Position numbers and translations under genes: made by a program. DNA of 64,000 nt from Herbidospora sakaeratensis (GTDB taxonomy: Bacteria; Actinomycetota; Actinomycetes; Streptosporangiales; Streptosporangiaceae), in assembly GCF_001570525.1 (NCBI RefSeq), contig NZ_BBXC01000008.1, positions 62,001 to 126,000 on the forward strand. The letters run 5' to 3'. The notes beneath the pieces are model-generated. The model ran no database searches. It was not told where the DNA came from and worked only from the letters and a program-made list of their open reading frames with translations. The first letter of the stretch is position 1. Each line of letters starts with the position of its first letter. Of the stretch, positions 4,545-20,851 are shown piece after piece.

Positions 4545-6097
4545 GCGCGGTCGCCCTCGACGACGCCGGATGGCAGCGGCTCAACAGCCGGGTGGCCTGG
4601 GTCGACCTCGGCAAGATGGTGGTCACCTTCATCCCCAGCGTGGTGGCCGCGGTCGTCTTCGACCAGGGCCTCCAGGCGTGGCCGGTCTTCATCGTGACCG
4701 GCCTCGGGGTCGTCTCCAGCGTGCTCGACCTCAAGCGCTGGATGCACACCCGCTACCGGGTCGGCGCCGACCGGATGGAGATCCGCAAGGGCTGGCTGAT
4801 CCGCCGGTACCGGTCGGTGCCGCGCGACCGCATCCGCACCGTGGACACCAGCGCCAAGCTGCGGCACCGCCTCGCGGGGCTGCGGGTGGTGCACATCTCC
4901 TCGGGCGAGGCCCGCACGTCGTTCAAGCTCGACGCGCTGGAGTCGCGGACGGCCGAACGGCTGCGCGCCGACCTGCTGGGCGTCACCCCCGCCGTGGAGA
5001 CCGCCGAGGTCAAGGCGGAGGAGACGGTGCTCGCCCGGCTGCGCTGGTCGTGGTTCGTCTACAACATCGTCAGCGTCTGGGCCTTCCTGGTCTCGGGGCT
5101 GCTGCTGCTGAGCGCCTACCTGACCATGCAGACGTTCGGGGTCGACCTGCGGGAGGTCATCGCGGGCGCGGTCGACTGGAGGTCCCTGGGGCTCGGCTGG
5201 ACGATCGTGGTGGCCACGGCCGGCTGCTTCGTGCTGGGCACCTTCGGCATGGCGCTCAACTACCTGCGGGAGAAGGCCAACTTCCGGCTCGTCCGCACCC
5301 GGACCGACGACGGCACCGCCCTGCTGACCCGCCAGGGCATGTTCCGCATCCGCGAGGTCTACCGCGACGACCGGCGGCTGCGCGGCGTCGCCATCAGCGA
5401 GCCGCTGCTGTCACGGTGGTTGCGGCTGGCCGAGACCGAGGTCGTGTCGACCGGCCTGAGCTGGACGCCGGGCAGCGACGCGGCCGCCGCCATCCTGCCC
5501 CGCACGTCCGTCGCCGAGGCGCGGCGCGTGGCGGCGCTCGTGCTCGGCGACGAGCACCGGCCGCTGGACGCCCCGCTGCGGCGGCACCCCCGGCCGGCGC
5601 TGCGACGGCGGCTGGTGTGGGCGGGTTACGTGCCGGGCGTCCCGGCGGCGCTGCTGGCCTGGCTGGGCGCGACGGGCGCCGTGCCCGGCTGGATCTGGGC
5701 GGTGCCCGCCGGGCTGATCCCGGTGGCCTGCCTGCTCGCCGTGGTGGCCTACCGCTCGCTCGGGCACGCCATGGCCGGGCCCTACCTGGTGATGCGGTCG
5801 GGGCTGATCCGGCGCACGACGGTCGTGCTGCAGAGCCGGGGCGTCATCGGCTGGGGGGTCCGGCAGTCGCTGCTCCAGCGGCGGCTCGGTCTCGCGACGC
5901 TGCGGGTGCAGACCGCGGCGGGCAACCGCGTCTACGAAGTGCCCGACATCGCGGCCGGGGAGGCGGCGGCCTTCGCGCACGCCGCGACCCCCGTGATCCT
6001 GGCTCCGATCCTTGCCGAGGGGGCGGCGGAGGCCGTTTCTGATCCCCAACCTGATGGGCAGGAGGCACACATTGCGCACGACCCAGCTCACGGATGA
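4541..6097 (+). CDS. YdbT-like multi-PH-domain membrane protein
   Basis: A 518-residue protein starting at GTG 4541 inside the stop of the YdbS-like gene. It carries three PH-like repeats: RYRSVPRDRIRTVDTSAKLRHRLAGL, a middle degenerate copy, and VVLQSRGVIGWGVRQSLLQRRLGLATL. Membrane-helix pairs lie between them (for example VSVWAFLVSGLLLLSAYL and AWLGATGAVPGWIWAVPAGL). This three-repeat layout is that of B. subtilis YdbT. It partners the preceding gene, probably in one membrane complex. Its last codons overlap the aldo/keto reductase start by 26 nt, so it is physically locked into the glycosylation operon. Confidence 0.82.
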   Translation: MSAVALDDAGWQRLNSRVAWVDLGKMVVTFIPSVVAAVVFDQGLQAWPVFIVTGLGVVSSVLDLKRWMHTRYRVGADRMEIRKGWLIRRYRSVPRDRIRTVDTSAKLRHRLAGLRVVHISSGEARTSFKLDALESRTAERLRADLLGVTPAVETAEVKAEETVLARLRWSWFVYNIVSVWAFLVSGLLLLSAYLTMQTFGVDLREVIAGAVDWRSLGLGWTIVVATAGCFVLGTFGMALNYLREKANFRLVRTRTDDGTALLTRQGMFRIREVYRDDRRLRGVAISEPLLSRWLRLAETEVVSTGLSWTPGSDAAAAILPRTSVAEARRVAALVLGDEHRPLDAPLRRHPRPALRRRLVWAGYVPGVPAALLAWLGATGAVPGWIWAVPAGLIPVACLLAVVAYRSLGHAMAGPYLVMRSGLIRRTTVVLQSRGVIGWGVRQSLLQRRLGLATLRVQTAAGNRVYEVPDIAAGEAAAFAHAATPVILAPILAEGAAEAVSDPQPDGQEAHIAHDPAHG

Positions 6098-7058
6098 CCT
6101 GTCCGTCAGCGCCATCGGCCTGGGCTGCAGTTCGATGTCCCACGGTTACGGGCCGGCCAACCGCGACGACGAGGAGTCCGTCGCGGTCATCCGGGAGGCC
6201 GTCGAGCTCGGCATCGACCTCTTCGACACCGCCGACGTCTACGGGCCGTACACCAACGAACGGCTGCTCCAGCGGGCGCTGGCCACGCACGGCGGCGAGG
6301 TGACGATCGCCACCAAGTGCGGGCTGATCGCGGGGCCCGACGGCAGGTTCCGCCGCAACGGCCGGCCCGACCACCTGCGGGCCGCGTGCGAGGGATCGCT
6401 GCGCCGGCTCGGTGTGGAGGCCATCGACCTCTACCAGCTGCACCGGGTCGACCCGGCCGTCCCCCTGGCGGAGACGTGGGGCGCGCTCGGCGAGCTGGTG
6501 ACCGAGGGCAAGGTCAGGGCGCTGGGCATCTCCCACGCCACCGTCGAGGAGCTCGACCTGGTGCACACGTTGTTCCCGGTCGCCGCCGTGCAGTACGAAC
6601 TGTCGGTGTGGGCCACGGCCTGCCTCGGCGACGTGCTGCCCTGGACGCGACGGCACGGCGTGGGCTTCCTCGCCTTCGCCCCGCTTGGCCGCGGTTTCCT
6701 GTCGGGCCACGTCGACCACGCCGCTCTGGGCGAGGGCGACTCGCGCAACCGGGACCCCCGGTTCAGCCCCGACGCGATGACCGCGAACCGGTGGATCGTC
6801 CAGGGGCTGCGCGAGATCAGCGAACGGCACGGCGCGACCCCGGCGCAGGTCGCCATCGCCTGGGTGCTGGCCCAGGGCGACAACGTGGCGCCCATCCCCG
6901 GCACCCGCAACCGCCGCTGGCTGCGGGAGAACGCGACCGCCGTCGACCTGGTGCTCACCCCCGACGACCTGCGCGACATCGGCGCGCTGCCGCCTCCGGT
7001 GGGCGAGATGAGCTGGGACCAGATCCGCATCGAGACGACGACGGGACAACGACCGTGA
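6072..7058 (+). CDS. Aldo/keto reductase, probable deoxysugar reductase
   Basis: A 328-residue TIM-barrel oxidoreductase. The catalytic tetrad is visible: Asp and Tyr in FDTADVYGPYTNE, Lys in TIATKCG and His in LYQLHRVD; PIPGTRNRRWLREN is the NADP-phosphate-binding region. The TTG at 6072 is chosen because GGAGG (6061-6065) precedes it by 6 nt; an ATG at 6054 lies inside the preceding gene without an RBS. AKRs in macrolide clusters (EryBII/TylCII) reduce the 2,3-enone or 3-keto group left by the 2,3-dehydratase, which is the likely job here. The GLGCSSMSHGYG start looks closer to the AKR13/YakC branch, so the substrate is uncertain. Confidence 0.85.
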   Translation: MRTTQLTDDLSVSAIGLGCSSMSHGYGPANRDDEESVAVIREAVELGIDLFDTADVYGPYTNERLLQRALATHGGEVTIATKCGLIAGPDGRFRRNGRPDHLRAACEGSLRRLGVEAIDLYQLHRVDPAVPLAETWGALGELVTEGKVRALGISHATVEELDLVHTLFPVAAVQYELSVWATACLGDVLPWTRRHGVGFLAFAPLGRGFLSGHVDHAALGEGDSRNRDPRFSPDAMTANRWIVQGLREISERHGATPAQVAIAWVLAQGDNVAPIPGTRNRRWLRENATAVDLVLTPDDLRDIGALPPPVGEMSWDQIRIETTTGQRP

Positions 7059-7741
7059 CCGACACCCCGGCCCCGGCGGCCAAGCCGCGGGTCACCCGCT
7101 TCGCCCTCTCCCCCGCCCCCGCCACCCCGAAGACGACGATCTTCCCGCACACGGTCTCGCGCCGGCTGGCCCTCCATCCGGCGGGCGGCTCCGACCAGCG
7201 CGACTTCGCCCAGCTGTTCGTCCGCACCGGCGTCGAGACGGTGCGCCCGGCCGTCCGGCCCGGCCAGGGCGGCGCCATGCGCGCGTACGCGGCCTTCCGG
7301 GTGACCCGGCTCGGCACCGGCGAGCAGGTGGGCTTCGGCGGGCTGCACAACCTCGACCCGGCCGGGCACGTGCGGTGCGCGGTCTACATGAACCCCGACA
7401 CGGCCCGGCTGGGCGTCGGCTCGGAGGCGATCCTGCTGGTGGTCAACTACGCCTTCGCCACCCTCGACGTCGAGCGGGTGATCGGCCAGACCACGCAGGC
7501 CAGCTTCAGCTCGTTCGGCATCTCCGACCGCGACGAGCGGACCGGGGCGCTGCCGCAGCACCTCTACTTCCGCGGCCGCTACTGGGACCTGCACAACTTC
7601 CAGGTCGAGCGCTCCGACTGGGAGGCGTACATCGACCGTAGGACCGACTGGGAGGAGTTCATGGGCAAGAGCTCCAACGGCGTCCTCCCGCCGTCGCTCG
7701 ACTGGCGGACCGCGCCGGACCGGCCGTTCGACGTGTCCTGA
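7055..7741 (+). CDS. GNAT-fold N-acyltransferase, second cluster copy
   Basis: A 228-residue protein starting at GTG 7055 within the stop (GTGA) of the reductase gene. The first 40 residues are Pro/Ala-rich. The GNAT core includes VGFGGLHNLDPAGHVRCAVYM, a LGVGSEAILLVVNYAFATLDVER helix and FRGRYWDLHNFQVERSDW, similar to the GNAT at 2888-3418. The extra C-terminal tail (EFMGKSSNGVLPPSLDWRT) is distinctive. Two related GNATs in one glycoside cluster suggest acylation of amino sugars; one could take the hydroxycinnamoyl group from the ACP. Donor and acceptor are unknown. Confidence 0.78.
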   Translation: MTDTPAPAAKPRVTRFALSPAPATPKTTIFPHTVSRRLALHPAGGSDQRDFAQLFVRTGVETVRPAVRPGQGGAMRAYAAFRVTRLGTGEQVGFGGLHNLDPAGHVRCAVYMNPDTARLGVGSEAILLVVNYAFATLDVERVIGQTTQASFSSFGISDRDERTGALPQHLYFRGRYWDLHNFQVERSDWEAYIDRRTDWEEFMGKSSNGVLPPSLDWRTAPDRPFDVS

Positions 7742-7773: not shown

Positions 7774-8769
7774 GTGGCGACCACAACCGCCCCACCACTG
7801 ATCACCGTTCTCGGCGCCTCCGGGCTGCTCGGCACGGCCATCACCCGTGAGCTGGCCGACCGGCCGGTCCGGTTGCGGCTCGTCGGTCGCCGCCCCACCT
7901 CCGTCCCGCCGGGCCCGCGCGCCGAGGTGGAGGTGCGCGCCCTGGACCTGACGGCGGAGGGCGCGCTCGCCTCCGCCGTCGAGGGCGCCGACGCGGTGAT
8001 CCACCTGGTCGCCCACATGGGCCGGGCGAGCACCTGGCGGGTGGCCGCCGTCGACCCCGTCGCCGAGCAGGTCAACCTCGGCCTGGTGCACCGGCTGCTC
8101 GACGCGGTGCGGGCGAGCCGCCCGGCCCGCCCGCCGGTGCTGCTGTTCGCCGGGTCGGCCTCGCAGGTCGGCCGCTCGTCGTCGGCTCTGGTGGACGGCA
8201 GCGAGCAGGACGAACCGCTGACCGCGTACGACCAGCAGAAACTCGCGGCCGAGCGGATCATCGAGGCGGCCACCGCCGAGGGCCTGGTACGCGGCAGCAC
8301 GCTGCGCCTGGCCACCCTCTACAGCCAGGGCGTCGACCCGACCTCGCTCGACCGGGGGGTGGTGGCGACGATGATGCGCCGCGCCTTCGCCGGCGAGCCG
8401 CTGACGATGTGGCACGACGGCACCGTCAAGCGCGACCTGCTCTGCGTCGACGACACGGCGCGCGCCTTCGTGGCCGCGCTGAACCGGGCCGACGCGGTGG
8501 CGGGCGGGCGCTGGCTCGTCGGCACGGGTCAGGCCACCAGCGTGGCGGAGCTGTTCACGATGATCTCCAAGGTGGTGGCGCGGCGCACCGGCCGGCCGCC
8601 GGTCCCGGTGGCGTCGGTGCCGCCGCCCGAGCACTCGATGCCCACCGACCAGCTCGACTTCGTGCTCGACCCGGCCGCCTTCCAGAAGGTGTCCGGCTGG
8701 TCGGCGCGGGTGCCGCTGATGGAGGGCCTCGAATCGGCGGCCGACGCGATCGCCCGCGAGTCGGCGTGA
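7774..8769 (+). CDS. NDP-hexose 4-ketoreductase (SDR, EryBIV/TylCIV type)
   Basis: A 331-residue extended short-chain dehydrogenase. It has the NAD(P) motif TVLGASGLLGTAIT near the start, the catalytic Ser in FAGSASQVG, and YxxxK in TAYDQQKLAAE. The family sets the C4 stereochemistry in the last reduction of a deoxysugar pathway. The GTG at 7774 is preserved as start because AAGGAG sits about 7 nt upstream; an upstream TTG at 7744 has no RBS. Its stop overlaps the ATG of the first array glycosyltransferase (TGATG), tying sugar completion to transfer. The stereochemical outcome cannot be read from sequence. Confidence 0.9.
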   Translation: MATTTAPPLITVLGASGLLGTAITRELADRPVRLRLVGRRPTSVPPGPRAEVEVRALDLTAEGALASAVEGADAVIHLVAHMGRASTWRVAAVDPVAEQVNLGLVHRLLDAVRASRPARPPVLLFAGSASQVGRSSSALVDGSEQDEPLTAYDQQKLAAERIIEAATAEGLVRGSTLRLATLYSQGVDPTSLDRGVVATMMRRAFAGEPLTMWHDGTVKRDLLCVDDTARAFVAALNRADAVAGGRWLVGTGQATSVAELFTMISKVVARRTGRPPVPVASVPPPEHSMPTDQLDFVLDPAAFQKVSGWSARVPLMEGLESAADAIARESA

Positions 8770-10034
8770 TGCGGGTCCTGTTCGTCGTCAACCCGGAGAA
8801 GTCGATCTTCCAGTACCTGGTCCCGCTCGCCTGGGCGCTGCGCACGGCGGGCCACGAGGTCAGGGTGGCCAGCCAGCCGGCGTTCGCCACGGTGATCACG
8901 CAGGCGGGGCTGACGGCCGTGCCGGTGGGCGAGGACCGCGACCCGTGGCGCATCACCGCGAACCGGCCCGACCTGCGGGAGGCGATGCGGGTCGGCATCA
9001 TGAAGCCGTACGACGCCTTCGACGACTCGGAGAAGGCGACGTGGGAGTACCTGCGGCCGGGGCTGGCCGAGGCGGTCCGGGGCTGGCACCGGGTGGCCAA
9101 CTTCCCGATCATCGCGGAGCTGGTCGGGTTCGCCCGGCACTGGAAGCCCGACCTGGTGCTCTGGGAGCCGCTCACGTTCGCCGGGGGCATCGCCGCCCGG
9201 GCGTGCGGCGCCGCGCACGCGCGGGTGTTGTTCGGCGTCGACGTGTACGGCGGCGTGCGCGCCCTGTTCCGGCGGCTCGACGCGCTGAGGCCGGACGAGG
9301 AGCGGGCCGACCCGATGGCCGAGTGGCTGACCGGCTACGCCCGCAAGTACGGCTTCGACTTCGGCGAGGACCTGGTCACCGGCCACTTCACCGTCGACCA
9401 GCTGCCCCGCAGCCTCCAGGTCGAGGCCGCCGGCCTCGACTACGTGCGCATGCGGCACGTCCCCTACGGCGGGCCCTCGGTCGTGCCCGACTGGTTGCGC
9501 GCCCCGCCGGAACGCCCCCGCGTCGGGTTCACCCTGGGCCTGCACGCGACGGAGATCTACAGCGGTTACAACGTCGACGTCCAGGACATCCTCGACCACC
9601 TGGGCGAGCTCGACGTCGAGGTGGTCGCCACCGTCGCGGCCAGCGAGCGGCCCAAGCTGCGCCGGATCCCGCCCAACGCCCGGGTGGTGCCCTTCGTGCC
9701 GTGGCAGGCCCTCGTGGCGACCTGCGCGGCCGTCGTCCACCACGCCGGGGCCGCCACCCTGGCGACCGCCGCTCTCCGCCCGATCCCGCAGCTCTCGCTG
9801 CACTACCACTTCGACCAGCCGACCCTCGCCCGCAGGCTGGCCGCCCACGGGGCGGGGCTCGAACTGCACACCAGCGAGGCCACCGGGCCCGCCGTCGCCC
9901 ACGCCGTGCACCGGCTGCTCACCGAGCCCGCCTTCGCCCGCCGCGCCCACGACCTGCGCGACGAGGCGCACGCCGCGCCCTCCCCCAACGACCTCGTCCC
10001 GCACCTCGAACAACTCACCGCCAAGCACCGCTAG
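8769..10034 (+). CDS. Glycosyltransferase 1 of the eight-gene array
   Basis: A 421-residue GT-B enzyme of the EryCIII/DesVII-like (DUF1205-containing) family-1 type, opening MRVLFVVNPEKSIFQYLVPL. The acceptor half carries the shared LTAVPVG and WKPDLVLWEPLTFAGGIAARACGAAHAR segments. The nucleotide-binding motif is altered: residues 324-330 read HHAGAAT where most members have HxGxGT, followed by LHYHFDQPTLARRL instead of the usual PWDxDEP. Copy 3 has the same changes, so these two are sister copies. It starts within the stop of the ketoreductase gene. Sugar and acceptor are unknown. Confidence 0.93.
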   Translation: MRVLFVVNPEKSIFQYLVPLAWALRTAGHEVRVASQPAFATVITQAGLTAVPVGEDRDPWRITANRPDLREAMRVGIMKPYDAFDDSEKATWEYLRPGLAEAVRGWHRVANFPIIAELVGFARHWKPDLVLWEPLTFAGGIAARACGAAHARVLFGVDVYGGVRALFRRLDALRPDEERADPMAEWLTGYARKYGFDFGEDLVTGHFTVDQLPRSLQVEAAGLDYVRMRHVPYGGPSVVPDWLRAPPERPRVGFTLGLHATEIYSGYNVDVQDILDHLGELDVEVVATVAASERPKLRRIPPNARVVPFVPWQALVATCAAVVHHAGAATLATAALRPIPQLSLHYHFDQPTLARRLAAHGAGLELHTSEATGPAVAHAVHRLLTEPAFARRAHDLRDEAHAAPSPNDLVPHLEQLTAKHR

Positions 10035-10046
10035 GGAGACGACACG

Positions 10047-11297
10047 ATGCGCGTCCTGCTGGTCACGTACCAGAGCACGACCATCTTCACCGCGATGGTG
10101 CCGCTCGCCTGGGCGCTGCGCACGGCGGGCCACGACGTCCGCGTCGCCAGCCAGCCCTCGTTCACCGGCGTGATCACCCAGGCCGGGCTGACGGCCGTGC
10201 CGGTCGGCCGGAACCACACGACGTGGCGGGTCGGCGAACTGCACCCCGAGCAGGTCGAGGCGGAGCGCAACGGGCTGCCCGCGCCCTACGACACGGTCGC
10301 CGGCGACGCCGAGCCCGACTGGGCGCGCATGCGGGACGGCTACGCCGAGATGCTGAGCCGCTGGCACAAGCTGGACAACTTCCCGATGATCGCCGACCTG
10401 GTCGACTACGCCCGGCACTGGGAGCCCGACCTGGTGATCTGGGAGCCCACCACGTACGCGGGGCCGATCGCGGCGCGGGCCTGCGGCGCGGCGCACGCGC
10501 GGCTGCTCTGGAGCGTGGACGTCTTCGGCGCCGCCCGCGAGCACTACCTGCGCCTCGCGGCCGGGCGGCCCGACGACCCGCTGGGCGAGTGGCTGGGCGG
10601 CTACGCCCGCAAGTACGGCTTCGACTTCGGCGAGGACCTGGTCACCGGCCAGTTCACCATCGACCAGGTGCCCGGCTCGCTGGCCGTGCCGACCGCGCTC
10701 GACCGGGTCCCGATGCGGACCGTGCCCTACGGCGGCCCGGCCGTCGTGCCCGGCTGGCTGCACGCGCCGCCGGAGTTGCCCCGGGTGGCGCTGACGCTGG
10801 GCACCACCGCGACCGAGCGCTACGCCGGGTTCGCCGCCAACGTGCCCGACATCATCGCCGCGCTGGCCGACCTCGACCTCGAACTGGTGGCCACCCTGCC
10901 GGCGAACGTGCAGGGCACGGTCGGCGCCCGCCCGGAACGCACCCGGCTGGAGACCTTCGTCCCGCTGCACGCGCTCGCGCCGACCTGCGCGGTCGTCATC
11001 AACCACGCGGGCCCCGGAACGTTCCTCACCACCGCCCTGTACGGCGTCCCGCAGGTGACGCTGCCGTGGGACTTCGACGAGCCGGAGCTGGCCAGGCGGG
11101 CGGCGGCGCAGGGCGGCACGCTCACGCTGCGCCCCGACCGGGTCACCGGCGAGGAGGTCCGCGACGCCATGTTGCGCCTGATCGACGAGCCGGGCTTCGC
11201 CGACCGGGCCGAGGACCTGCGCCGGGAGATGCTCGCGATGCCGAGCCCGGCCGAGCTGGTGCCCCGCCTCGAAGAGCTGACCGCCAAGCACCGCTGA
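10047..11297 (+). CDS. Glycosyltransferase 2 of the array
   Basis: A 416-residue GT-B enzyme, MRVLLVTYQSTTIFTAMVPL at the start. The donor-site motif is canonical (NHAGPGTFLTT from residue 319), followed by VPQVTLPWDFDEPELARR, where the Asp/Glu pair is expected to contact the donor sugar. Middle segments GYARKYGFDFGEDLVTGQFT and VPYGGPAVVPGWLH are shared with its neighbours. The gene follows copy 1 by 12 nt with a GGGAG ribosome site. It is less like copy 1 than copy 3 is, although it lies between them, which argues for duplication of a larger unit or rearrangement within the array. Confidence 0.93.
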   Translation: MRVLLVTYQSTTIFTAMVPLAWALRTAGHDVRVASQPSFTGVITQAGLTAVPVGRNHTTWRVGELHPEQVEAERNGLPAPYDTVAGDAEPDWARMRDGYAEMLSRWHKLDNFPMIADLVDYARHWEPDLVIWEPTTYAGPIAARACGAAHARLLWSVDVFGAAREHYLRLAAGRPDDPLGEWLGGYARKYGFDFGEDLVTGQFTIDQVPGSLAVPTALDRVPMRTVPYGGPAVVPGWLHAPPELPRVALTLGTTATERYAGFAANVPDIIAALADLDLELVATLPANVQGTVGARPERTRLETFVPLHALAPTCAVVINHAGPGTFLTTALYGVPQVTLPWDFDEPELARRAAAQGGTLTLRPDRVTGEEVRDAMLRLIDEPGFADRAEDLRREMLAMPSPAELVPRLEELTAKHR

Positions 11298-11313
11298 CGC
11301 AGGGAGGACGACC

Positions 11314-12573
11314 ATGCGGGTGATGTTCGCCGCCGTGCCGGCCAAGACGATCTTCCAGTACATGGTGCCGCTGGCCTGGGCGTTCCGCGCGGCGGGGCAC
11401 GAGGTGGTGTTCGCCAGCCAGCCGGGCTTCGCCGGCGTGATCACCTCGGCCGGGCTGACCGCCGTGCCCGTCGGGCGCGACCGGGAGTTGCGGATGGTGC
11501 GCTCGGCCGAGGAGCTGGAGGCGGAGCGGGTGGGCATCCCGCCGCCGTACGACGCCTTCGACGATCCGGAGAAGGCCACCTGGGAGTACCTGAAGCCGGG
11601 CATGGCCCGGGCGGCGAACCTGTGGCACCGCTACGGCAACTTCCCGATCATCGCCGACCTGGTGGACTTCGCCCGGCACTGGAAGCCCGACCTGGTCGTC
11701 TGGGAACCGCTCACCTTCGCCGGTCCGGTCGCCGCGCGGGCCGCCGGGGCCGCGCACGCCCGCCTGCTGTTCAGCGTCGACGTCTACGGCGGGGTGCGCG
11801 CCCTCTACCGGCGGCTCAACGAGCGGCGGCCCCCGGAGCTGCGGTCCGACCCGATGGCCGACTGGCTGGCCGGCTACGCCCGCAAGTACGGCTTCGACTT
11901 CGGCGAGGACCTGCTCACCGGCCAGTTCACCGTCGACCAGCTGCCCCGCAGCCTCCAGGTCGAGGCCGAGGGCCTCTCCTACGCCCGCATGCGGTACGTC
12001 CCCTACGGCGGCCCCGCGGTGGTCCCGGGCTGGTTGCGCGAGCCGCCCGCCCGCCCGCGTGTCGGGTTCACCATGGGGCTCAGCGCGACGGAGACCTACA
12101 CCGGCTACAACGTCGACGTCCAGGACGTCCTCGACCACCTGGGCGAGCTCGACGTCGAGGTGGTCGCCACCATCGCGGCCAGCGAGCAGCCGAAGCTCCG
12201 GCGGATCCCGCCCAACGCCCGGATCGTGTCCTACGTCCCGTGGCACGCCCTGGCCCCCACCTGCGCCGCCGTCATCCACCACGCCGGGGCCGCGACCCTG
12301 GCCACCACGGCGCTGCACCCCGTGCCGCAGCTGTCGCTGCACTACCACTTCGACCAGCCCACCCTGGCCAGGAAGCTGGCCGCGCACGGCGCGGGGCTGG
12401 AGATCCACACCACCCGGGCCACCGGCCCAGCCGTCGCCGAAGCCGTCGACCGGCTGCTCACCGAGCCGTCGTTCGCCCGGCGCGCCCACGACCTCCGCGA
12501 CGAGATGCACGCGCTGCCCAGCGCCGCCGAGCTCGTCCCGCACCTCGAAGAACTCACCGCCAAGCACCGCTGA
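11314..12573 (+). CDS. Glycosyltransferase 3 of the array
   Basis: A 419-residue GT-B enzyme very close to copy 1. Both contain GGVRALxRRL, DFGEDLxTGxFTVDQLPRSLQVEA, YNVDVQD-LDHLGELDVEVVAT and the unusual HHAGAATLAT motif (from residue 322 here) followed by LHYHFDQPTLAR. The Gly-to-Ala change in the diphosphate-binding loop is therefore shared by a recent pair rather than being a single error. An AGGGAGGACGACC ribosome site precedes the ATG. Such pairs may add the same sugar at different positions, or one may be redundant; the sequence cannot say which. Confidence 0.93.
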   Translation: MRVMFAAVPAKTIFQYMVPLAWAFRAAGHEVVFASQPGFAGVITSAGLTAVPVGRDRELRMVRSAEELEAERVGIPPPYDAFDDPEKATWEYLKPGMARAANLWHRYGNFPIIADLVDFARHWKPDLVVWEPLTFAGPVAARAAGAAHARLLFSVDVYGGVRALYRRLNERRPPELRSDPMADWLAGYARKYGFDFGEDLLTGQFTVDQLPRSLQVEAEGLSYARMRYVPYGGPAVVPGWLREPPARPRVGFTMGLSATETYTGYNVDVQDVLDHLGELDVEVVATIAASEQPKLRRIPPNARIVSYVPWHALAPTCAAVIHHAGAATLATTALHPVPQLSLHYHFDQPTLARKLAAHGAGLEIHTTRATGPAVAEAVDRLLTEPSFARRAHDLRDEMHALPSAAELVPHLEELTAKHR

Positions 12574-12590
12574 CCAGGAAAGAGACCCGG

Positions 12591-13871
12591 ATGCGCGTCC
12601 TGATTACGACATATCCAGAGAGGACCCATTTCCTGCTGATGGTGCCGCTCGCGTGGGCGCTGCGCACGGCGGGCCACGAGGTGCGGGTGGCGGTGCAGCC
12701 GAAGTTCGCCGACGTGGTCACCCAGGCCGGGCTGACGGCCGTGCCGGTGGGCGGCGACCGCGACCTGTGGCAGGTCATCGGCCGGGTGCGGAACCTGCCC
12801 CGGCAGGACCGGGCGTTCGCGGGGAACCGGGAGCCCGGCTACCCGTCGCCCTACGACGCCTTCGAGCGCGACCCCGCCGACCTCACCTGGGAGGACCTGC
12901 GCGACGGCTACGAGCGGCAGATCTCCGGCTGGCACAAGGTGAGCAACGTGCCCATGGTCGCCGGGCTGGTCGACTTCGCCCGGCACTGGCGGCCCGACCT
13001 GGTCATCTGGGAGCCGACGACCTTCGCCGGCGCCGTCGCGGCCCGCGCCTGCGGGGCCGCGCACGCCCGGCTGCTCATCGGCGCGGACGTCTACGGCATC
13101 GCCCGGGAGCACTTCCTGCGCCTGAAGGACGGCCGGGCCGACCCCCTCGCCGACTGGCTCGGCTCCTACGCCCGCAAGTACGGCTTCACCCCGGGAGAGG
13201 ACCTCGCCACCGGCGACTTCACCCTCGACGTGCTGCCGCCCCCGCTGCGCGTCCAGGCCCGCGACCTCACCTATGTGCCCGTCCGCTACACCCAGTACGG
13301 CGGCCCCGCGTCGGTGCCCGCCTGGTTGCGCACCCCGCCCGAGCGCCCCCGGGTCGCCCTCACGATGGGCCTGACCATCACCGAGCACGACGTGGGCTAC
13401 CCGGTCGACATGCAGGGACTCCTCGACGAGCTGGCCGACCTGGACATCGAGCTGGTCGCCACCGTCCCCGACGCGGAGAAGGAGAAGCTGGAGCGCATTC
13501 CGGCCAACGCGCGCCTGGTGCCGTACGTGCCGCTGCCCGACCTGGTGCCGACCTGCTCGGCCGTGATCCACCACGGCGGCGTCGGCACCATGGTCACCAC
13601 CGCGCAGTTCGGCGTCCCGCAACTCTCCCTGCCGTGGGACGTCGACCAGCCCGCCCTCTCCACCCTGCTGGCCGCCGCCGGAGCAGGGCTCACCATGCAC
13701 TCCACCACGGCCACCGGCCCGGCCGTCCGCGACGCGGTGCGGCGGCTGCTGACCGAGCCGTCCTTCGCCGAGGGCGCGGCGCGGCTGCGGGCCGAGGCGC
13801 TGTCGGTGCCGGCTCCCAACCAGGTCGTGCCCCGCCTGGAGGAGCTGGCCGCCCGGCACGGCCGGAGGTGA
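12591..13871 (+). CDS. Glycosyltransferase 4 of the array
   Basis: A 426-residue GT-B enzyme starting MRVLITTYPERTHFLLMVPL at ATG 12591 after an AAAGAG ribosome site, 17 nt from copy 3. It pairs best with copy 5: both have TTYPExxHFLxM, GGDRDLWQ, a GEDLATGDFT segment and a MSNVPMV/VSNVPMV stretch. The donor motif HHGGVGTMVTT and LPWDVDQPALS are intact. The acceptor-side loop between LTAVPVG and YDAF is longer than in copies 1-3 (IGRVRNLPRQDRAFAGN), as expected if acceptor specificity differs. Confidence 0.93.
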   Translation: MRVLITTYPERTHFLLMVPLAWALRTAGHEVRVAVQPKFADVVTQAGLTAVPVGGDRDLWQVIGRVRNLPRQDRAFAGNREPGYPSPYDAFERDPADLTWEDLRDGYERQISGWHKVSNVPMVAGLVDFARHWRPDLVIWEPTTFAGAVAARACGAAHARLLIGADVYGIAREHFLRLKDGRADPLADWLGSYARKYGFTPGEDLATGDFTLDVLPPPLRVQARDLTYVPVRYTQYGGPASVPAWLRTPPERPRVALTMGLTITEHDVGYPVDMQGLLDELADLDIELVATVPDAEKEKLERIPANARLVPYVPLPDLVPTCSAVIHHGGVGTMVTTAQFGVPQLSLPWDVDQPALSTLLAAAGAGLTMHSTTATGPAVRDAVRRLLTEPSFAEGAARLRAEALSVPAPNQVVPRLEELAARHGRR

Positions 13872-13879
13872 GGGCCGCC

Positions 13880-15136
13880 ATGCGCGTGTTGTTCACCACC
13901 TATCCGGAGAAGGCGCACTTCCTGGCCATGGCGCCGCTGGCGTGGGCGCTGCGCGCGGCGGGCCACGAGGTGGTGTTCGCCGTGCAGCCCGCGTTCTGCC
14001 CGGTGGTCACCCAAGCCGGGCTCACCGCCGTGCCCATCGGCGGCGACCGGGACCTCTGGCAGCTGATGAACCGCGACCTGAACTGGATCGCGGCCGGCAT
14101 GAACGGCCTGCCGGTGCCCTACGACGCCGCCGAATGGCGGCCCCAGGACGTCACCTGGTCCTACCTGCGCGACGGGTACGCCGCCCAGGTGCCGCGCTGG
14201 CACAAGATGAGCAACGTCCCCATGGTGCCCGCCCTGGTCGACTTCGCCCGGCACTGGAGACCCGACCTGGTGATCTGGGAGCCGACCACCTACGCGGGCG
14301 CCGTCGCGGCCCGGGCCTGCGGCGCGGCCCACGCCCGCCTGCTGTTCAGCGTCGACGGCTTCGGCGTGACCCGGGAGCACTACCTCCGCCTCAAACCCGA
14401 CGGGTCCGGCGACGACCCCCTGGCCGAATGGCTCGACGGCTACGCCCGCGCCTACGGGTTCCCGTACGGCGAGGACCTCGCGACCGGCGACTTCACGATC
14501 ACGCTGATGCCGCCCTCGATGCGCCTGGAGGCCGAGGGCCTGCGCTACGTGCCGCTGCGCTACGTGCCCTACGGGGGCCCGGCCGTCGTCCCCGGCTGGT
14601 TGCGGGCCGCGCCGGAGCGGCCGAGGGTCGCCTTCACCACGGGCATCAGCTTCGCCGAGCACGGCGCGGGCAGCGCGGTGAGCCTCCTCGACGTGCTCGG
14701 CGCCCTGTCCGAACTCGACGTCGAGCTGGTGGCCACGGTGGGCGACGCCGACCGGGAGCGCCTCGGCGGGAAGCTGCCGGGCAACGTGCGGCTGGTGCGG
14801 TTCGTGCCGATGCAGGCGCTGGTGGCGACCTGCTCGGCCGTCATCCACCACGCCGGGTTCGGCACGCTGGCGACCACGGCGCTGCAGGGCGTGCCCCAGC
14901 TGGCGATGCCGTTCGACGGCGACGGCCCGGCGCTCGCCCGGCGGATCGCCGCGCAGGGCGCCGGGCTGGCGCTGCTGGCCGCCCAGGTCAGCGGCCCGAC
15001 CATCCGCGACCGGTTGTCGCGGCTGCTGCGCGAGCCCGCCTTCGGCGTCGCGGCGGGCCGCCTGCGGCAGGAGATGCTCGACATGCCCTCCCCCAACGAA
15101 CTGGCCGGGGACCTGGCCGAGCTGGCCGGGCGGTGA
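13880..15136 (+). CDS. Glycosyltransferase 5 of the array
   Basis: A 418-residue GT-B enzyme, ATG 13880 preceded by GGAGG (around 13864), 8 nt after copy 4. It starts MRVLFTTYPEKAHFLAMAPL and shares most acceptor-side features with copy 4. The donor motif is HHAGFGTLATT. The following segment reads MPFDGDGPALARR rather than PWDFDEP, so the residues that normally contact the sugar (Asp/Glu-Pro) are replaced by Gly-Asp-Gly. This suggests a different donor or altered activity; structural modelling would be needed to tell. Confidence 0.92.
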   Translation: MRVLFTTYPEKAHFLAMAPLAWALRAAGHEVVFAVQPAFCPVVTQAGLTAVPIGGDRDLWQLMNRDLNWIAAGMNGLPVPYDAAEWRPQDVTWSYLRDGYAAQVPRWHKMSNVPMVPALVDFARHWRPDLVIWEPTTYAGAVAARACGAAHARLLFSVDGFGVTREHYLRLKPDGSGDDPLAEWLDGYARAYGFPYGEDLATGDFTITLMPPSMRLEAEGLRYVPLRYVPYGGPAVVPGWLRAAPERPRVAFTTGISFAEHGAGSAVSLLDVLGALSELDVELVATVGDADRERLGGKLPGNVRLVRFVPMQALVATCSAVIHHAGFGTLATTALQGVPQLAMPFDGDGPALARRIAAQGAGLALLAAQVSGPTIRDRLSRLLREPAFGVAAGRLRQEMLDMPSPNELAGDLAELAGR

Positions 15137-15141
15137 CCGGC

Positions 15142-16416
15142 ATGCGCGTGCTGTTCGTCGCCAACCCCGAGAAGGCCCACCTGCTGGCCATGGTGCCGCT
15201 GGCCTGGGCGCTGCGCGCGGCCGGCCACGAGGTGCGGGTCGCCTCGCAGCCCGCCTTCGCCGGCGTGATCACCCAGGCCGGGCTCACCGCCGTGCCGGTC
15301 GGCCGCGACGCCGACCTGTGGCGGCTGCTCGCCCGCGACCCCCGCCTGCCCGGCTGGACGTGGCGGCCCGCCTACGGCCTGCCCGCCCCCTATGACGTGG
15401 CCCAGTTCCCCGAGCGGGGCGCCTGGGAGCACCTGACCGAGGGGTACGCCGAGGTGCTGCGCCACTGGCACCGGCCCGGCTGCCTGCCCATGATCGCCGG
15501 GCTGACCGAGTTCGCCCGCCACTGGCGGCCCGACCTCGTCGTCTGGGAGCCGCTCGCCTTCGCGGGCCCGATCGCCGCCCGCGCCTGCGGGGCCGCGCAC
15601 GCGCGCCTCCTCTGGAGCCTGGACGTCTTCGGCCTGACCCGCGCCCGCTTCCTGGACCTGAAGGAGGGCCGGCCGGCGCACGACCGCGCCGACCCGCTGG
15701 CCGAGTGGCTCGACGGCTACGCCCGCATGCACGGCGGCGCCTTCGCCGAGGACATGGTGACCGGCCAGTTCACCATCGACCAGCTGCCCGCCTCGATCGC
15801 CGTGCGGGCCCCGGGCCTGCGCCACGTCCCGGTCCGGTACGTCCCCTACGGCGGGCCCTCCGTGGTGCCCGGCTGGTTGCGCGAACCGCCCCGGCGTCCC
15901 CGCGTCGCGCTGACGATGGGCGTCAGCCTCACCGACCACGCGGCCGGGTACTCGGTCAGCGTGCGCGACCTCCTGGAGGCGCTGGCCGACCTCGACGTCG
16001 AGGTCGTCGCCACCATTGCCGACGCCGAGCGGCACGGCCTGCCCACGGTGCCGGGCAACGCCCGCGTGGTGCCCTACGTGCCGCTCCAGGCGCTGGCCGC
16101 GACCTGCGCCGCGGTGCTCAGCCACGGCGGCTTCGGCACCATGCTCACCACGGCCGGGCACGGCGTGCCGCAACTCGCGATGCCGTGGGACTTCGACGGC
16201 CCGCTGTTCGCCCGGCGGGTGGCCGCGCAGGGCGCGGCGCTGGCCGTCGACGCCGACCGGGTGACCGGCGAGCACGTCCGCGCCGCCGTGCTGCGGCTGC
16301 TGGAGGAACCCGCCTTCGCCAAGCGGGCCGACGACCTGCGGGCCGAGATGGCCGCCCTGCCGAGCCCCGGCCGGCTGGTCGCCCGGCTCGAGGAACTGAC
16401 CGAGAGGAACCGCTAG
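15142..16416 (+). CDS. Glycosyltransferase 6 of the array
   Basis: A 424-residue GT-B enzyme, MRVLFVANPEKAHLLAMVPL. The ATG at 15142 is 5 nt past the stop of copy 5; a GTG at 15133 overlapping that stop would add three residues (VTG) and cannot be excluded. The donor motif SHGGFGTMLTT replaces the first His by Ser, as in several family members. MPWDFDGPLFARR follows, with Gly in place of Glu, the same change as in copy 5. An acceptor loop RDPRLPGWTWRPAYGL is unique to this copy. Confidence 0.92.
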   Translation: MRVLFVANPEKAHLLAMVPLAWALRAAGHEVRVASQPAFAGVITQAGLTAVPVGRDADLWRLLARDPRLPGWTWRPAYGLPAPYDVAQFPERGAWEHLTEGYAEVLRHWHRPGCLPMIAGLTEFARHWRPDLVVWEPLAFAGPIAARACGAAHARLLWSLDVFGLTRARFLDLKEGRPAHDRADPLAEWLDGYARMHGGAFAEDMVTGQFTIDQLPASIAVRAPGLRHVPVRYVPYGGPSVVPGWLREPPRRPRVALTMGVSLTDHAAGYSVSVRDLLEALADLDVEVVATIADAERHGLPTVPGNARVVPYVPLQALAATCAAVLSHGGFGTMLTTAGHGVPQLAMPWDFDGPLFARRVAAQGAALAVDADRVTGEHVRAAVLRLLEEPAFAKRADDLRAEMAALPSPGRLVARLEELTERNR

Positions 16417-16418
16417 CC

Positions 16419-17684
16419 ATGCGCGTACTGTTCGTGATCAACCCCGAGACCACCACGCTGCTGCCCATGGTGCCGATGGCCTGGGCGCTCCGCACCGCCG
16501 GGCACGACGTCCGGGTCGCCAGCCAGCCCGGCTTCGCCAAGGAGATCAACCAGGCCGGGCTCACCGCCGTGCCCGTCGGCCGCGACATGGACATGTACCG
16601 CCTCGTCGAGGTGGCGATGGACGTCCACGAGGACATCGGGCACGGCCTGCACCGGCCGTTCGACGTCGTCGACGACCCCGCCAAGGCGACCTGGGAGCGC
16701 ATGCTGCCGGGCTACGTGGAGGCGGTCGCGGAGGAGCACCGGCGGGAGAACTTCCCGATCATCGCCGACCTGGTCGACTTCGCCCTGCACTGGGAGCCCG
16801 ATCTGGTGATCTGGGAGCCGTCGACGTACGCGGGCGGCATCGCCGCCAAGGCGTGCGGGGCGGCCTCGGCACGGCAGCTGATCTCCATCGACATGTTCGG
16901 CGTCACCCGCGACCACTTCCTGCGGCTCAAGGCGCAGCGGCCGCCGGAGGACCGGGCCGACCCGCTGGCCGACTGGCTCGGCGGCTACGCCCGCAAGTAC
17001 GGCGGCGAGTACACCGAGGACATGGCCTCCGGCCACTTCACCATCGACCAGCTGCCTCCCTCGCTTCGCCGGGAGGCCGACCTGCACAACGTGCCGCTCC
17101 GCTACGTCCCCTACAACGGCGTGGCCGTCGTGCCCGACTGGTTGTGGCAGGAGCCGCGGCGGCCGCGCGTCGCCCTCACCCTGGGCTGGACGGCCGGGGA
17201 ACGCTTCGCGACGTACACGGTCGACGTGCAGACCGCGCTCGACGCGCTGGCCGACCTCGACGTCGAGGTGGTGGCCACCATCGCCGAGGCCGCCCAGAAG
17301 GAGCTGCGGGTGCCGGACAACGCGCGCATCGTGCCCTTCGTCCCGCTGCACGCGCTGGCCCCCACCTGCAGCGTCGTCATCAACCACGCGGGCGCCGGCA
17401 CGCTGATCACCACCGCCGGATACGGGATCCCGCAGCTCACCCTGCCGTGGGACATCGACGAGCCCGAGTTGTCCCGCCTGCACAGCGCCCAGGGCGCCGG
17501 GCTGACGATCCGCGGCGACCTGGCGTCCGAGGAGGAGATCCGCACCCAGGTGCGGCGGCTGCTCGACGAGCCTTCCTTCGCCCAGCGCGCCCGCGACCTG
17601 CGCGACGAGATCCACGCCATGCCGACGCCCAACCAGCTGGTCCCGCAGCTGGAGGAGCTCACCGCCAAGTACCGGAGCCGCTGA
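16419..17684 (+). CDS. Glycosyltransferase 7 of the array
   Basis: A 421-residue GT-B enzyme, MRVLFVINPETTTLLPMVPM, only 2 nt after copy 6. With copy 8 it forms a pair sharing FDVVDDPAxATWERML, REHFLRLKAQxPP and GRDxDMxRL. The donor motif NHAGAGTLITT and LPWDIDEPELSR are canonical. The conserved VPYGGP is replaced by VPYNGVAVVPDWLW, a local change near the inter-domain linker. The gene overlaps copy 8 by one base (TGATG), implying coupled translation. Confidence 0.93.
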   Translation: MRVLFVINPETTTLLPMVPMAWALRTAGHDVRVASQPGFAKEINQAGLTAVPVGRDMDMYRLVEVAMDVHEDIGHGLHRPFDVVDDPAKATWERMLPGYVEAVAEEHRRENFPIIADLVDFALHWEPDLVIWEPSTYAGGIAAKACGAASARQLISIDMFGVTRDHFLRLKAQRPPEDRADPLADWLGGYARKYGGEYTEDMASGHFTIDQLPPSLRREADLHNVPLRYVPYNGVAVVPDWLWQEPRRPRVALTLGWTAGERFATYTVDVQTALDALADLDVEVVATIAEAAQKELRVPDNARIVPFVPLHALAPTCSVVINHAGAGTLITTAGYGIPQLTLPWDIDEPELSRLHSAQGAGLTIRGDLASEEEIRTQVRRLLDEPSFAQRARDLRDEIHAMPTPNQLVPQLEELTAKYRSR

Positions 17685-18961
17685 TGCGGGTCCTGTTCGC
17701 CATCACGCCCGGCACCAGCACGTTCCTGCCGCTGGTGCCGCTGGCGTGGGCGCTGCGCACGGCGGGCCACGAGGTCAGGGTGGCCAGCCAGCCCGGCTTC
17801 GCCGACGCGATCACCCGGGCCGGGCTGACCGCGGTGCCGGTGGGCCGCGACCTCGACATGGTCCGGCTCCTCCGGGGCTACGGCGTGACCGACGAGCAGC
17901 TGGAGCAGGCGCGGGCCGGGCTGTCGCCGCCGTTCGACGTCGTGGACGACCCCGCGCACGCCACCTGGGAGCGCATGCTCGGCGGCTACGCCGACGCCGT
18001 CGACGGCTACCGGGCCGAGAACCTGCCGATGATCGCCGGCCTGGTCGAGTTCGCCCGGCGCTGGCGTCCCGACCTGGTGATCTGGGAGCCGTTCAGCTAC
18101 GCGGGCGCCATCGCGGCCCGGGCCGTCGGCGCCGCGCACGCCCGCCAGTTGTGGTGCCTGGACGTCTTCGGCCTCGCCCGCGAGCACTTCCTGCGGCTCA
18201 AGGCGCAGCAGCCGCCGCAGGAGCGGGCCGACCCGCTGGCCGACTGGCTCGGCGGCTACGCCCGCAAGTACGGCTTCCCCTACGGCGAGGACCTGGCCAC
18301 CGGGCACTTCACCATCCACCAGCTGCCCGCCTCGCTCAGCGACCAGGCCGACGGGCTGCACTACCTGCGGATGCGGTACGTCCCGCACGTCGGCGTCGCC
18401 ACCGTGCCCCGCTGGTTGCGCACCCCACCGGCGCGCCCGAGGGTCGCGCTGACCCTCGGCTTCGCCGCCGACGGCTTCTCGGGCGGCTTCGCGATCGGCG
18501 TGCAGGAGGCGCTCGACCACCTGGCCGACCTCGACGTCGAGGTGGTCGCCACCATCCCCGACGCGCAGCGGGCCCGGCTGCGCCGGGTGCCGGCCAACGC
18601 CCGGCTGGTGCCGTTCGTGCCGCTGGACGCGCTCGTGCCCACCTGCGCGGCCGTCATCGACCACGGCGGCGACGGCACCGTGCTGACGACCGCCCTGCAC
18701 GGCGTGCCGCAACTGGCCGTCGGCCACCACTTCAACGAGCCGATCATGGCGCGCAAGCTCGCCGCGCAGGGGGGCGCGCTGCAGATGCGTCCCGCCGAGG
18801 CCACCGGGCCGGCGATCCGGGAGGCCGTGCAACGCCTGCTGACCGACCCCGGGCTGCGGGCGGGGGCCGAGCGGCTGCGCGCGGAGATGCACCGGCTGCC
18901 CACGCCCAACGACCTGGTGCCGGAACTGGAGGCGCTCACCGAGAAGCACCGGAGCTCCTAG
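17684..18961 (+). CDS. Glycosyltransferase 8, last of the array
   Basis: A 425-residue GT-B enzyme, MRVLFAITPGTSTFLPLVPL, starting inside the stop of copy 7. It is paired with copy 7 by sequence. The donor motif is DHGGDGTVLTT (first His replaced by Asp). It is followed by LAVGHHFNEPIMARKL, so the usual PWD is lost, resembling the LHYHFDQP variant of copies 1 and 3. VPYGGP is VPHVGVATVPRWL here. It is the final gene of the right-going operon; a strong hairpin lies 6 nt beyond its stop. Confidence 0.93.
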   Translation: MRVLFAITPGTSTFLPLVPLAWALRTAGHEVRVASQPGFADAITRAGLTAVPVGRDLDMVRLLRGYGVTDEQLEQARAGLSPPFDVVDDPAHATWERMLGGYADAVDGYRAENLPMIAGLVEFARRWRPDLVIWEPFSYAGAIAARAVGAAHARQLWCLDVFGLAREHFLRLKAQQPPQERADPLADWLGGYARKYGFPYGEDLATGHFTIHQLPASLSDQADGLHYLRMRYVPHVGVATVPRWLRTPPARPRVALTLGFAADGFSGGFAIGVQEALDHLADLDVEVVATIPDAQRARLRRVPANARLVPFVPLDALVPTCAAVIDHGGDGTVLTTALHGVPQLAVGHHFNEPIMARKLAAQGGALQMRPAEATGPAIREAVQRLLTDPGLRAGAERLRAEMHRLPTPNDLVPELEALTEKHRSS

Positions 18962-19008: not shown

Positions 19009-19938
19009 TCAGGACGCGGTTCTCGCGTAGAGCGCCTGCCAGTAGAACGTCCACGGGCGGGCCCAGCCGTCCTCCACCAGGGTCCACTCCGGCCCGGGCC
19101 GGTAGACGGCGACGAAACGGGCCGCGTGCTCGCGCACGGCCGAGGCGTCGTGGACGTCGACGATGTCGCGCAGCAGCCCCGACCCGAGCGCCAGCCGGAC
19201 CGCCTCCTCGCCGTCGTACTGCCGGTCGAGGCTGTAGTCGAGGTACTTCCCGACGGGGTTCTTGGTGTAGAAGGCTGTGGCGACCGTGTCGATGACCGTG
19301 AGATAGTTGCGCGCCGTCTCCTCGTTCATCTCGGCGAAGGAGTCGATGTTCAGGCACAGGTCGAAGGCGGGGCCGCCGAGGAGGCCGTCCACCTCGTCGA
19401 TGCCGAGGAAGCGCACCCGGCCGAACCGCTCGGGCGTGAGCACCGCGCGCAGGTAGTCGCGCGAGAGGGTCAGGCAGTTCTCCAGGTCCACGATGACGTA
19501 CTCGGCGACGTCGTGGTTGGACAACACGGCGTGGCAGGAGCGGCCGTAGCCGGCCCCGATCTCCAGCACCCGGGCCCCGTCGAGCTTCACCGAGCGGCTG
19601 ACGAACTCGAGCTCGTGCACCGCCTGAAGGTAGTCGAGGCAGACCCGGTCGCCGTCCACGGTGACCGTGATCGGGGCGCCGACGTCGCGGTTGCGGATGC
19701 GGGCCAGGCGGGCCCGGTTCTCCGGCGACAGGTCGGCGGCCAGGTTGTAGGTCAGGGTCTTGAGGTAGCGGAGGCCGTTCGCCTCCGGGTTCCACAACGA
19801 GATCTTGTAGTTGACCGTGCTCGACTTGAAGGTGGCCAGGTCGAGCGCGTCCAGCGCCAGGCTCGTGCGGTTGATGCGGGCCCACTGCGGGCTCTGGCCG
19901 TACTTGTGGGTCGCCGGGGCGGTCTCGCGGTCACTCAT
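19009..19938 (-). CDS. Putative sugar O-methyltransferase
   Basis: A 309-residue protein. A characteristic N-terminal region (WARINRTSLALDAL, FKSSTVNYKISLWNPEANG) precedes a Rossmann methyltransferase core with SAM motif I VLEIGAGYGRS, then YVIVDLENCL and DLCLNIDSFAEM. This layout matches the family called putative sugar O-methyltransferase. It would methylate a hydroxyl of a free or attached sugar. It is the last gene of the left-going operon; its ATG (19938) overlaps the stop of the upstream methyltransferase by 8 nt. Position and acceptor are unknown. Confidence 0.82.
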   Translation of the reverse strand: MSDRETAPATHKYGQSPQWARINRTSLALDALDLATFKSSTVNYKISLWNPEANGLRYLKTLTYNLAADLSPENRARLARIRNRDVGAPITVTVDGDRVCLDYLQAVHELEFVSRSVKLDGARVLEIGAGYGRSCHAVLSNHDVAEYVIVDLENCLTLSRDYLRAVLTPERFGRVRFLGIDEVDGLLGGPAFDLCLNIDSFAEMNEETARNYLTVIDTVATAFYTKNPVGKYLDYSLDRQYDGEEAVRLALGSGLLRDIVDVHDASAVREHAARFVAVYRPGPEWTLVEDGWARPWTFYWQALYARTAS

Positions 19939-20851
19939 CGCCGTCGGTCTCCGGTTTGCGGGCCACGACGAGCACGACCCCGTCGTGCTCCTCCTCGTCG
20001 TCCTCGTACTCCAGCCAGTCGACGTCGTCGCCGACGCAGAAGATGCCGAGCAGGTCGGCGGGCAGGTCGCCGTGCCGGGCGGCGTACTCGCGGGTGGCCA
20101 CGTACAACCAGCGGAACGACTGCTTGGTGTGCTCGGTGAGGTCGGCGACCTCCTCGACCGCGAAGCCGGCCCGCTCGGCGAGGCCGGGATAGTCCTCCAG
20201 GCGGGCCATGGGCGCCATCCGCCAGGCCGCGGTCGCTTTGAGGAACGCCTCCTCCTCCGCCGGGTCGAGCTCCAGCGGGCCGCGCCGGATGTTGTCGGTG
20301 AGCACCAGGCGGCCGCCGGGGCGCAGCACGCGGGCGCACTCGCGCAGCGCGGCCGTCCGGTCGGGGAAGTGCGGGACCGTCTCGGCCGCCAGCACGGCGT
20401 CGAAGGTCCCCGCCTCGAAGGGCAGGTCGAGCGCGTCGGCGTGCCGGAACGTCACCCGGTCGGTCATCGACTCGGCCTCGGCCCGCGCCGAGGCCAGCTC
20501 GACCTCGACCCGGCTGATCGCGACGCCGGTCACCCGCGCGCCGGTCTCCCGCGCCACCTGGAGCGCGGCGGCCCCCGGCCCGCAGCCGAGGTCCAGGACG
20601 TGGTCGCCGGGCCCGATCCGGAGCGCGGTGGTCATGCGGGACGTCAGCCGGGCGGCGGCCGGCCCGAACGGCGCGGCGTCGTCGGGGCCGGTCCAGTAGC
20701 CCACGTGGATCTGGCCGCCGTAGATCTCCTCCAGCGCGCGGGCGTTGCGGTCGTAGAAGTCGGCGACCTGGTCGGGGGTGGGACCCTGGCGGGTGTCCCG
20801 GGTGCCGGTCGCGAACGAGCGCGCGCTGCGGCGCAACTGCTCCACGCTCAC
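19931..20851 (-). CDS. Class I SAM-dependent methyltransferase
   Basis: A 306-residue protein with the UbiE/COQ5-like core: motif I HVLDLGCGPGAAALQVA, ADALDLPFEAGTFDAVLAAETVPHF and VLRPGGRLVLTDN. An N-terminal ~60-residue cap (VADFYDRNARALEEIYGGQIHVGYW) is typical of natural-product O-/C-/N-methyltransferases. The GTG start (20851) overlaps the lyase stop as GTGA. The acceptor could be the hydroxycinnamate ring, an amino sugar nitrogen or a branched sugar carbon; nothing in the sequence decides. A Glu/Asp-rich stretch (DWLEYEDDEEEHD) near the C-terminus is unusual. Confidence 0.83.
   Translation of the reverse strand: MSVEQLRRSARSFATGTRDTRQGPTPDQVADFYDRNARALEEIYGGQIHVGYWTGPDDAAPFGPAAARLTSRMTTALRIGPGDHVLDLGCGPGAAALQVARETGARVTGVAISRVEVELASARAEAESMTDRVTFRHADALDLPFEAGTFDAVLAAETVPHFPDRTAALRECARVLRPGGRLVLTDNIRRGPLELDPAEEEAFLKATAAWRMAPMARLEDYPGLAERAGFAVEEVADLTEHTKQSFRWLYVATREYAARHGDLPADLLGIFCVGDDVDWLEYEDDEEEHDGVVLVVARKPETDGDE

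Follow-up and report, generated by a model that had tools for sequence, protein, structure and literature searches.

The closest described system is the saccharomicin (sam) cluster of Saccharothrix espanaensis, in which ten glycosyltransferase (GT) genes, sam11 to sam20, form a presumed operon (PMC3469384). According to the 2012 genome report, no cluster then known carried as many GTs as the sam operon (PMC3469384), and in the literature searched we found no description of this array type beyond S. espanaensis. In the published assignments, Sam20 and Sam17 transfer fucose (Fuc), Sam19 and Sam18 saccharosamine (Sac), Sam16 rhamnose (Rha), Sam15 and Sam11 digitoxose (Dig), and Sam14 and Sam12 epivancosamine (Eva) (PMC8234114); Sam13 was deduced here, from the residue count, to be an Eva transferase. 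The present analysis concerns a row of eight GT genes in Herbidospora sakaeratensis, contained in a 64,000-nt stretch (NZ_BBXC01000008.1, positions 62,001-126,000, forward strand) that is called the window and to which unprefixed coordinates refer. The surrounding cluster is saccharomicin-type, and the eight GTs are an expected feature of this known kind of cluster, here accompanied by nonribosomal peptide synthetase (NRPS) genes and lacking the taurine genes. With a probability of about 0.7, they constitute its oligosaccharide assembly module, acting stepwise and roughly in operon order.

An old, ordered array

The region 8769-18961 (+) encodes eight complete EryCIII-type GTs of 416-426 residues, all ATG-started and separated, from the upstream epimerase through GT8, by -1, 12, 16, 17, 8, 5, 2 and -1 nt. 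The initial annotation, which had read eight paralogous natural-product GTs in one operon, was exact in its counts, lengths and spacing. All eight exceed the cut-offs for both EryCIII-like_N (PF21036) and EryCIII-like_C (PF06722). Five copies were scored individually against the TIGR04516 profile, and all exceed its curated cut-off of 440 bits: GT1, with 470.6 bits, and GT3, GT4, GT6 and GT8. Pairwise protein identity among the eight lies at 52-61%, GT1 and GT3 (78%) being the exception, and a whole-genome search with GT2 recovered only these eight at 56-100% identity, all other genes reaching 38% at most. In Herbidospora yilanensis, the positional counterpart of each GT is 94-98% identical, and the ratio of nonsynonymous to synonymous substitution rates (dN/dS) of 0.06-0.26 indicates purifying selection on all eight; the row is therefore not a product of chance.

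Subfamily placement was obtained from a maximum-likelihood tree of 40 GTs, including EryCIII and other single GTs, with an approximately unbiased (AU) test of the hypothesis that the eight copies form one clade. The array GTs of all clusters form a single clade apart from EryCIII and the other single GTs (100/100), within which GT1 (8769-10034, +, 421 residues) and GT3 (11314-12573, +, 419 residues) pair at 100/100, as the initial annotation had proposed. This pair stands next to Sam20 and Sam17 (93/84), within a 100/98 clade. GT2 (10047-11297, +, 416 residues) falls in the Sam18/Sam19 clade (91/95), GT4 (12591-13871, +, 426 residues) with Sam16 and a Streptomyces GT (Sabi_a7.7; 98/92, and 99 in the C-domain tree), GT5 (13880-15136, +, 418 residues) with Sam15 (99/85), and GT6 (15142-16416, +, 424 residues, with an overlapping GTG at 15133 as a possible alternative start) inside the Sam14 clade (100/96). 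GT7 (16419-17684, +, 421 residues, dN/dS 0.06) and GT8 (17684-18961, +, 425 residues) have no resolved place in this tree.

Read from GT1 to GT6, the array follows the order in which its counterparts stand, 5' to 3', in the sam operon (Sam20 to Sam14). The ten-GT run of S. espanaensis that was taken as sam11-sam20 adjoins homologues of Sam5, Sam7 and Sam8, and sam numbering rises with coordinate: these homologues precede the GTs, and Sam29 and Sam36 types follow them. The direction is anchored by a Sam29-like decarboxylase at 6584244 and a Sam36-like amidase at 6591400. As six of its GTs group with Sam GTs and keep their gene order, the array is an old ordered set that predates the genus.

This bears directly on how the array arose. 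The initial annotation had it growing by repeated duplication; recent tandem duplications in this lineage, leaving near-redundant copies, would fit one operon drawn from one subfamily and the 78% identity of GT1 and GT3. However, a clade of the window's eight GTs is rejected (AU p 1.6e-119), the starred branches of the tree force at least six label changes, the nearer relatives of most copies are found in other genera, and H. yilanensis carries the eight in identical order. Recent duplication is thus hardly tenable as a general account: it is refuted for the array as a whole and survives only for GT1/GT3. Most copies group with relatives outside the window rather than with each other, but those relatives are themselves GTs of other saccharomicin-type arrays.

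Signs of sequence exchange between copies

After inheritance, the array appears to have been reshaped by sequence exchange between its copies. Two further pairs named in the initial annotation, 4 with 5 and 7 with 8, hold mainly for the N-terminal halves and fail as full-length young duplicates. GT4 and GT5 share 67% identity over the N-terminal half, falling to 54% over the C-terminal half; they are a deep pair only, and their separate Sam16 and Sam15 partners led us to reject a young duplication. GT7 and GT8 show the same profile (68% and 54%). In separate domain trees they are sisters in the N-domain tree (89) and far apart in the C-domain tree, the C-terminal half of GT7 standing beside the saccharosamine-type clade, and a full-length duplication was rejected here as well.

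The pattern is sharpest in the quartet GT1, GT3, Sam20 and Sam17. Over residues 1-120, where GT1 is nearest Sam20 and GT3 is Sam17-like, eight informative sites unite GT1 with Sam20 and GT3 with Sam17, versus two uniting GT1 with GT3. Over residues 121-421 the corresponding counts are 1 and 39 (Fisher p 7e-7, with the boundary at residue 120 picked after the data were seen), GT3 being homogenised with GT1 beyond that point. On the simplest reading, the ancestral array would have held two fucosyltransferases that were homogenised separately in each lineage past residue ∼120; a duplication after which the first 120 residues were replaced would leave an identical pattern. A stronger mosaic was found in GT2/GT5 of Streptomyces abikoensis and Streptomyces sp. 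NRRL F-4489 (N 68-71%, C 91-93%). Exchange precisely at the domain boundary was considered and is unsupported, as the best breakpoints scatter (GT1 residues 79-342, many near 105-121 and 185). Gene conversion, which the initial annotation had suggested looking for, was addressed with a GENECONV-like run test; it returned a few short significant tracts (GT1-GT2 residues 189-206, GT7-GT8 residues 166-195, GT3-GT5 residues 148-157), which may reflect constraint, since they lie in conserved motifs.

Predicted donors, assembly order and product

Substrates, order of action and product are predictions drawn from the Sam enzymes, made on top of the homology, synteny, subfamily placement, purifying selection and mosaicism that the sequences show. 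Position in the sam operon correlates with order of first use (Spearman 0.915, from the published roles in PMC8234114). Same-donor pairs of Sam GTs are higher in C-domain identity (permutation p 0.008), the N domain giving a non-significant 0.08. A link between acceptor and N-terminal-domain identity was also tried and was not significant (p 0.22); acceptor identity follows neither domain.

By analogy, GT1 is a predicted D-fucosyltransferase that would start the chain on the caffeoyl phenol, GT2 a predicted amino-sugar (saccharosamine-type) transferase, GT3 a second predicted D-fucosyltransferase, GT4 a predicted rhamnosyltransferase, GT5 a predicted digitoxosyltransferase and GT6 a predicted epivancosaminyltransferase; the donors of GT7 and GT8 are uncertain. 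In the proposed pathway, tyrosine would lose its amino group to give coumarate, which would be hydroxylated to caffeate and then activated, steps read from homology to Sam8, Sam5 and Sam7. The caffeate would then probably be joined to an NRPS-made peptide bearing diaminopropionate (Dap), taurine being replaced. The GTs would attach deoxysugars from thymidine diphosphate (dTDP) donors successively, starting on the caffeoyl phenol, in the order D-fucose (GT1), amino sugar (GT2), D-fucose (GT3), rhamnose-like sugar (GT4), digitoxose-like sugar (GT5), epivancosamine-like sugar (GT6) and two more sugars (GT7, GT8), with iterative use of GTs possible. The cluster lacks the taurine-side genes of saccharomicin, so a caffeoyl peptide is the probable aglycone. 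The product is most likely an antibiotic related to saccharomicin, its sugars set in a long chain by the eight GTs.

A different architecture, in which the eight GTs place short or branched sugars on several sites of the NRPS peptide, would suit the six-adenylation-domain NRPS, the Dap genes and the tailoring enzymes linked to the array. It sits poorly with the grouping of six GTs, order kept, with the enzymes of the linear saccharomicin chain, and S. espanaensis shares the core subfamilies while carrying taurine genes instead; we regard multi-site decoration as unlikely. Several points nevertheless weigh against stepwise assembly of one chain in operon order. No product is known from this organism, and the placement of GT2, GT7 and GT8 in the tree is weak. 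The donor rule comes from ten enzymes and six same-donor pairs only, with Sam13 (Eva) assigned by residue count. Streptomyces homologues (Sabi, Srhi) differ in gene order, so collinearity is not general, and the NRPS starts with an adenylation domain, which leaves the mode of caffeoyl joining unexplained.

The active site raises a further alternative. His33 of EryCIII aligns with His19 of OleD (PMC3391682), and from GT1 to GT8 the residues there are I,I,I,H,H,H,T,T. Of 138 array GTs, 98 lack the histidine, most array GTs having an aliphatic residue or Thr, and no substitute conserved acid/base was found in the array GTs. It is kept in seven comparable single-GT outgroups, EryCIII included; a ‘canonical’ set of 35 GTs was selected for having His33 and offers no independent control. 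Its absence from five of the eight copies could mean that several are inactive or structural, with fewer sugars added than there are GTs. Yet seven Sam GTs (Sam20, 19, 18, 17, 13, 12 and 11) likewise lack His33, all ten have assigned roles (PMC8234114), and selection is purifying across the eight window copies (dN/dS 0.06-0.26). Loss of His33 is therefore probably compatible with activity, and inactivity of several copies is very unlikely.

A bolder reading, which we offer tentatively and think doubtful, is that GT arrays in saccharomicin-type clusters record the sugar chain genetically, in rough order: gene position and the first ∼120 residues would track the step, while the remainder, donor-binding domain included, would be exchanged or homogenised among same-donor copies. 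If true, gene order and half-domain phylogeny would predict undescribed oligosaccharides. With the ten assigned Sam enzymes as anchors, such arrays make the acquisition of donor and acceptor specificity in GT-B enzymes directly testable.

Cluster content and comparison with known systems

Upstream of the array, the left end of the window holds the N-terminal part (3-374, -) of a ninth, divergent EryCIII-like GT (367 residues in full, L002:17271-18374), with relatives at 50-92% in six related clusters, followed by an NDP-hexose 2,3-dehydratase (391-1761, -, PF03559) and a DegT/EryC1 sugar aminotransferase (1764-2873, -, PF01041). A small acyl-carrier-like protein of 106 residues with a DLDSFS motif (3613-3933, +) has relatives in 18 related clusters and matched no family in a Pfam search; it is a possible tether for the caffeoyl group while the molecule is assembled. 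The bPH_2 membrane protein pair (4107-6097, +; genes at 4107-4544 and 4541-6097), kept in most related clusters including that of S. espanaensis, is a possible candidate for self-protection against a membrane-active product. An aldo/keto reductase (6135-7058, +, PF00248), probably a sugar ketoreductase, a GNAT acetyltransferase (7055-7741, +) and an NAD-dependent epimerase/4-ketoreductase (7774-8769, +) that overlaps the start of GT1 complete this side. Downstream lie two methyltransferases (19009-20851, -; a TIGR04371 sugar O-methyltransferase at 19009-19938 and a class I enzyme at 19931-20851), the aromatic amino acid ammonia-lyase (20848-22371, -, 77% to Sam8), a short coumarate-CoA-ligase-like adenylating enzyme (22368-23432, -, Sam7-like, 65%) and the RmlA glucose-1-phosphate thymidylyltransferase (23545-24468, -). 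Farther right, beyond the cluster, two low-coding-score open reading frames with the motifs RRSFKFLLRPT and RRSMKFLLRPT (50042-51250 and 63203-64465) resemble IS605 OrfB-type transposase genes.

To the left of the window, the locus continues with RmlC-like, Gfo/Idh, PMT-type membrane protein and HpaB-type hydroxylase genes, SbnA and SbnB (each over its equivalog cut-off), a protein whose sequence reads as MbtH-like, and a two-gene NRPS that holds six adenylation domains and a thioesterase. There follow an OTC-like carbamoyltransferase, RmlB, a sulfotransferase, a NodU-type carbamoyltransferase, a sugar C-methyltransferase and a Trp_halogenase-family flavoenzyme. Within L001:543-7170, the Trp_halogenase-family enzyme (82%) and the sulfotransferase (73-74%) have close counterparts in the clusters of Salinispora pacifica and Actinoplanes sandaracinus, and the NodU-type carbamoyltransferase is found again at 46-49%. 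SbnA, SbnB, the MbtH-like protein and the NRPS are probably cluster members, because they also occur within homologous Streptomyces and Prauserella clusters. The deoxysugar set includes an amino-sugar branch (RmlA, RmlB, 2,3-dehydratase, aminotransferase, C-methyltransferase, RmlC-like and ketoreductases), and the coumarate 3-hydroxylase is 81% identical to its sam homologue. No Sam29-type decarboxylase or Sam36-type amidase was found in the cluster; their only copies in the genome lie elsewhere, on contigs C10 and C15.

With the ammonia-lyase as query, 21 loci were found in 20 genomes, among them Amycolatopsis, Kibdelosporangium, Saccharothrix, Prauserella, Salinispora, Streptomyces, Actinoplanes, Nonomuraea and Herbidospora. 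Same-strand GT runs reach 15 in A. suaedae, 14 and 9 in two clusters of K. banguiense, 12 in S. tamanrassetensis, 11 in Actinoplanes sandaracinus, 9 in one further genome, 8 in H. yilanensis and 6-7 in three Streptomyces, with shorter or broken runs in the remaining clusters. Class-wide, 28 of 395 genomes carry the family over cut-off, in a survey that scored at most four candidates per genome and does not give array lengths. Long runs are thus usual within saccharomicin-type clusters, though the family is rare in the class; the initial annotation's view that an uninterrupted run is unusual gives way to the ten in a row of sam11-20 (PMC3469384) and the runs of 11-15 in related clusters. The Actinosynnema and K. 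persicum arrays each have two shortened GTs (314-377 residues) at the identical two positions, possibly decaying copies. The cluster type now extends to about 20 genomes in some ten genera; as many as 15 GTs stand in tandem, and in several clusters NRPS genes replace the taurine genes. These arrays point to a group of polyglycoside antibiotics that are probably undescribed.

Like EryCIII (PDB 2yjn, E 1e-121), the array GTs belong to a two-domain GT-B family, and the five window copies scored individually pass the TIGR04516 cut-off. Unlike EryCIII and other activator-dependent GTs, they form a separate clade (100/100), and most lack His33. The genome holds no P450-type activator (TIGR04515) above cut-off, the best candidate reaching 194.6 of 343 bits, and none lies beside any of the arrays; because of the former, the family name ‘activator-dependent’ may mislead for these GTs. 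The H. yilanensis cluster, compared over 60 kb with the left arm covered as far as the NRPS, carries the eight GTs in matching order (94-98%) and shares the NRPS (90%). The sam cluster differs in having ten GTs rather than eight and Sam29 and Sam36, whose homologues are missing from the cluster here; NRPS, SbnA/B, halogenase-like, carbamoyltransferase and sulfotransferase genes are linked here instead. The missing taurine genes speak against saccharomicin itself, an N-dihydroxycinnamoyl taurine heptadecaglycoside, as the product. With the sam cluster the locus nevertheless shares an uninterrupted EryCIII-type GT run, the ammonia-lyase, coumarate 3-hydroxylase and ligase, the small carrier-like protein, the bPH_2 pair, and aldo/keto reductase and epimerase genes, with GT1-GT6 corresponding to Sam20-Sam14 in gene order.

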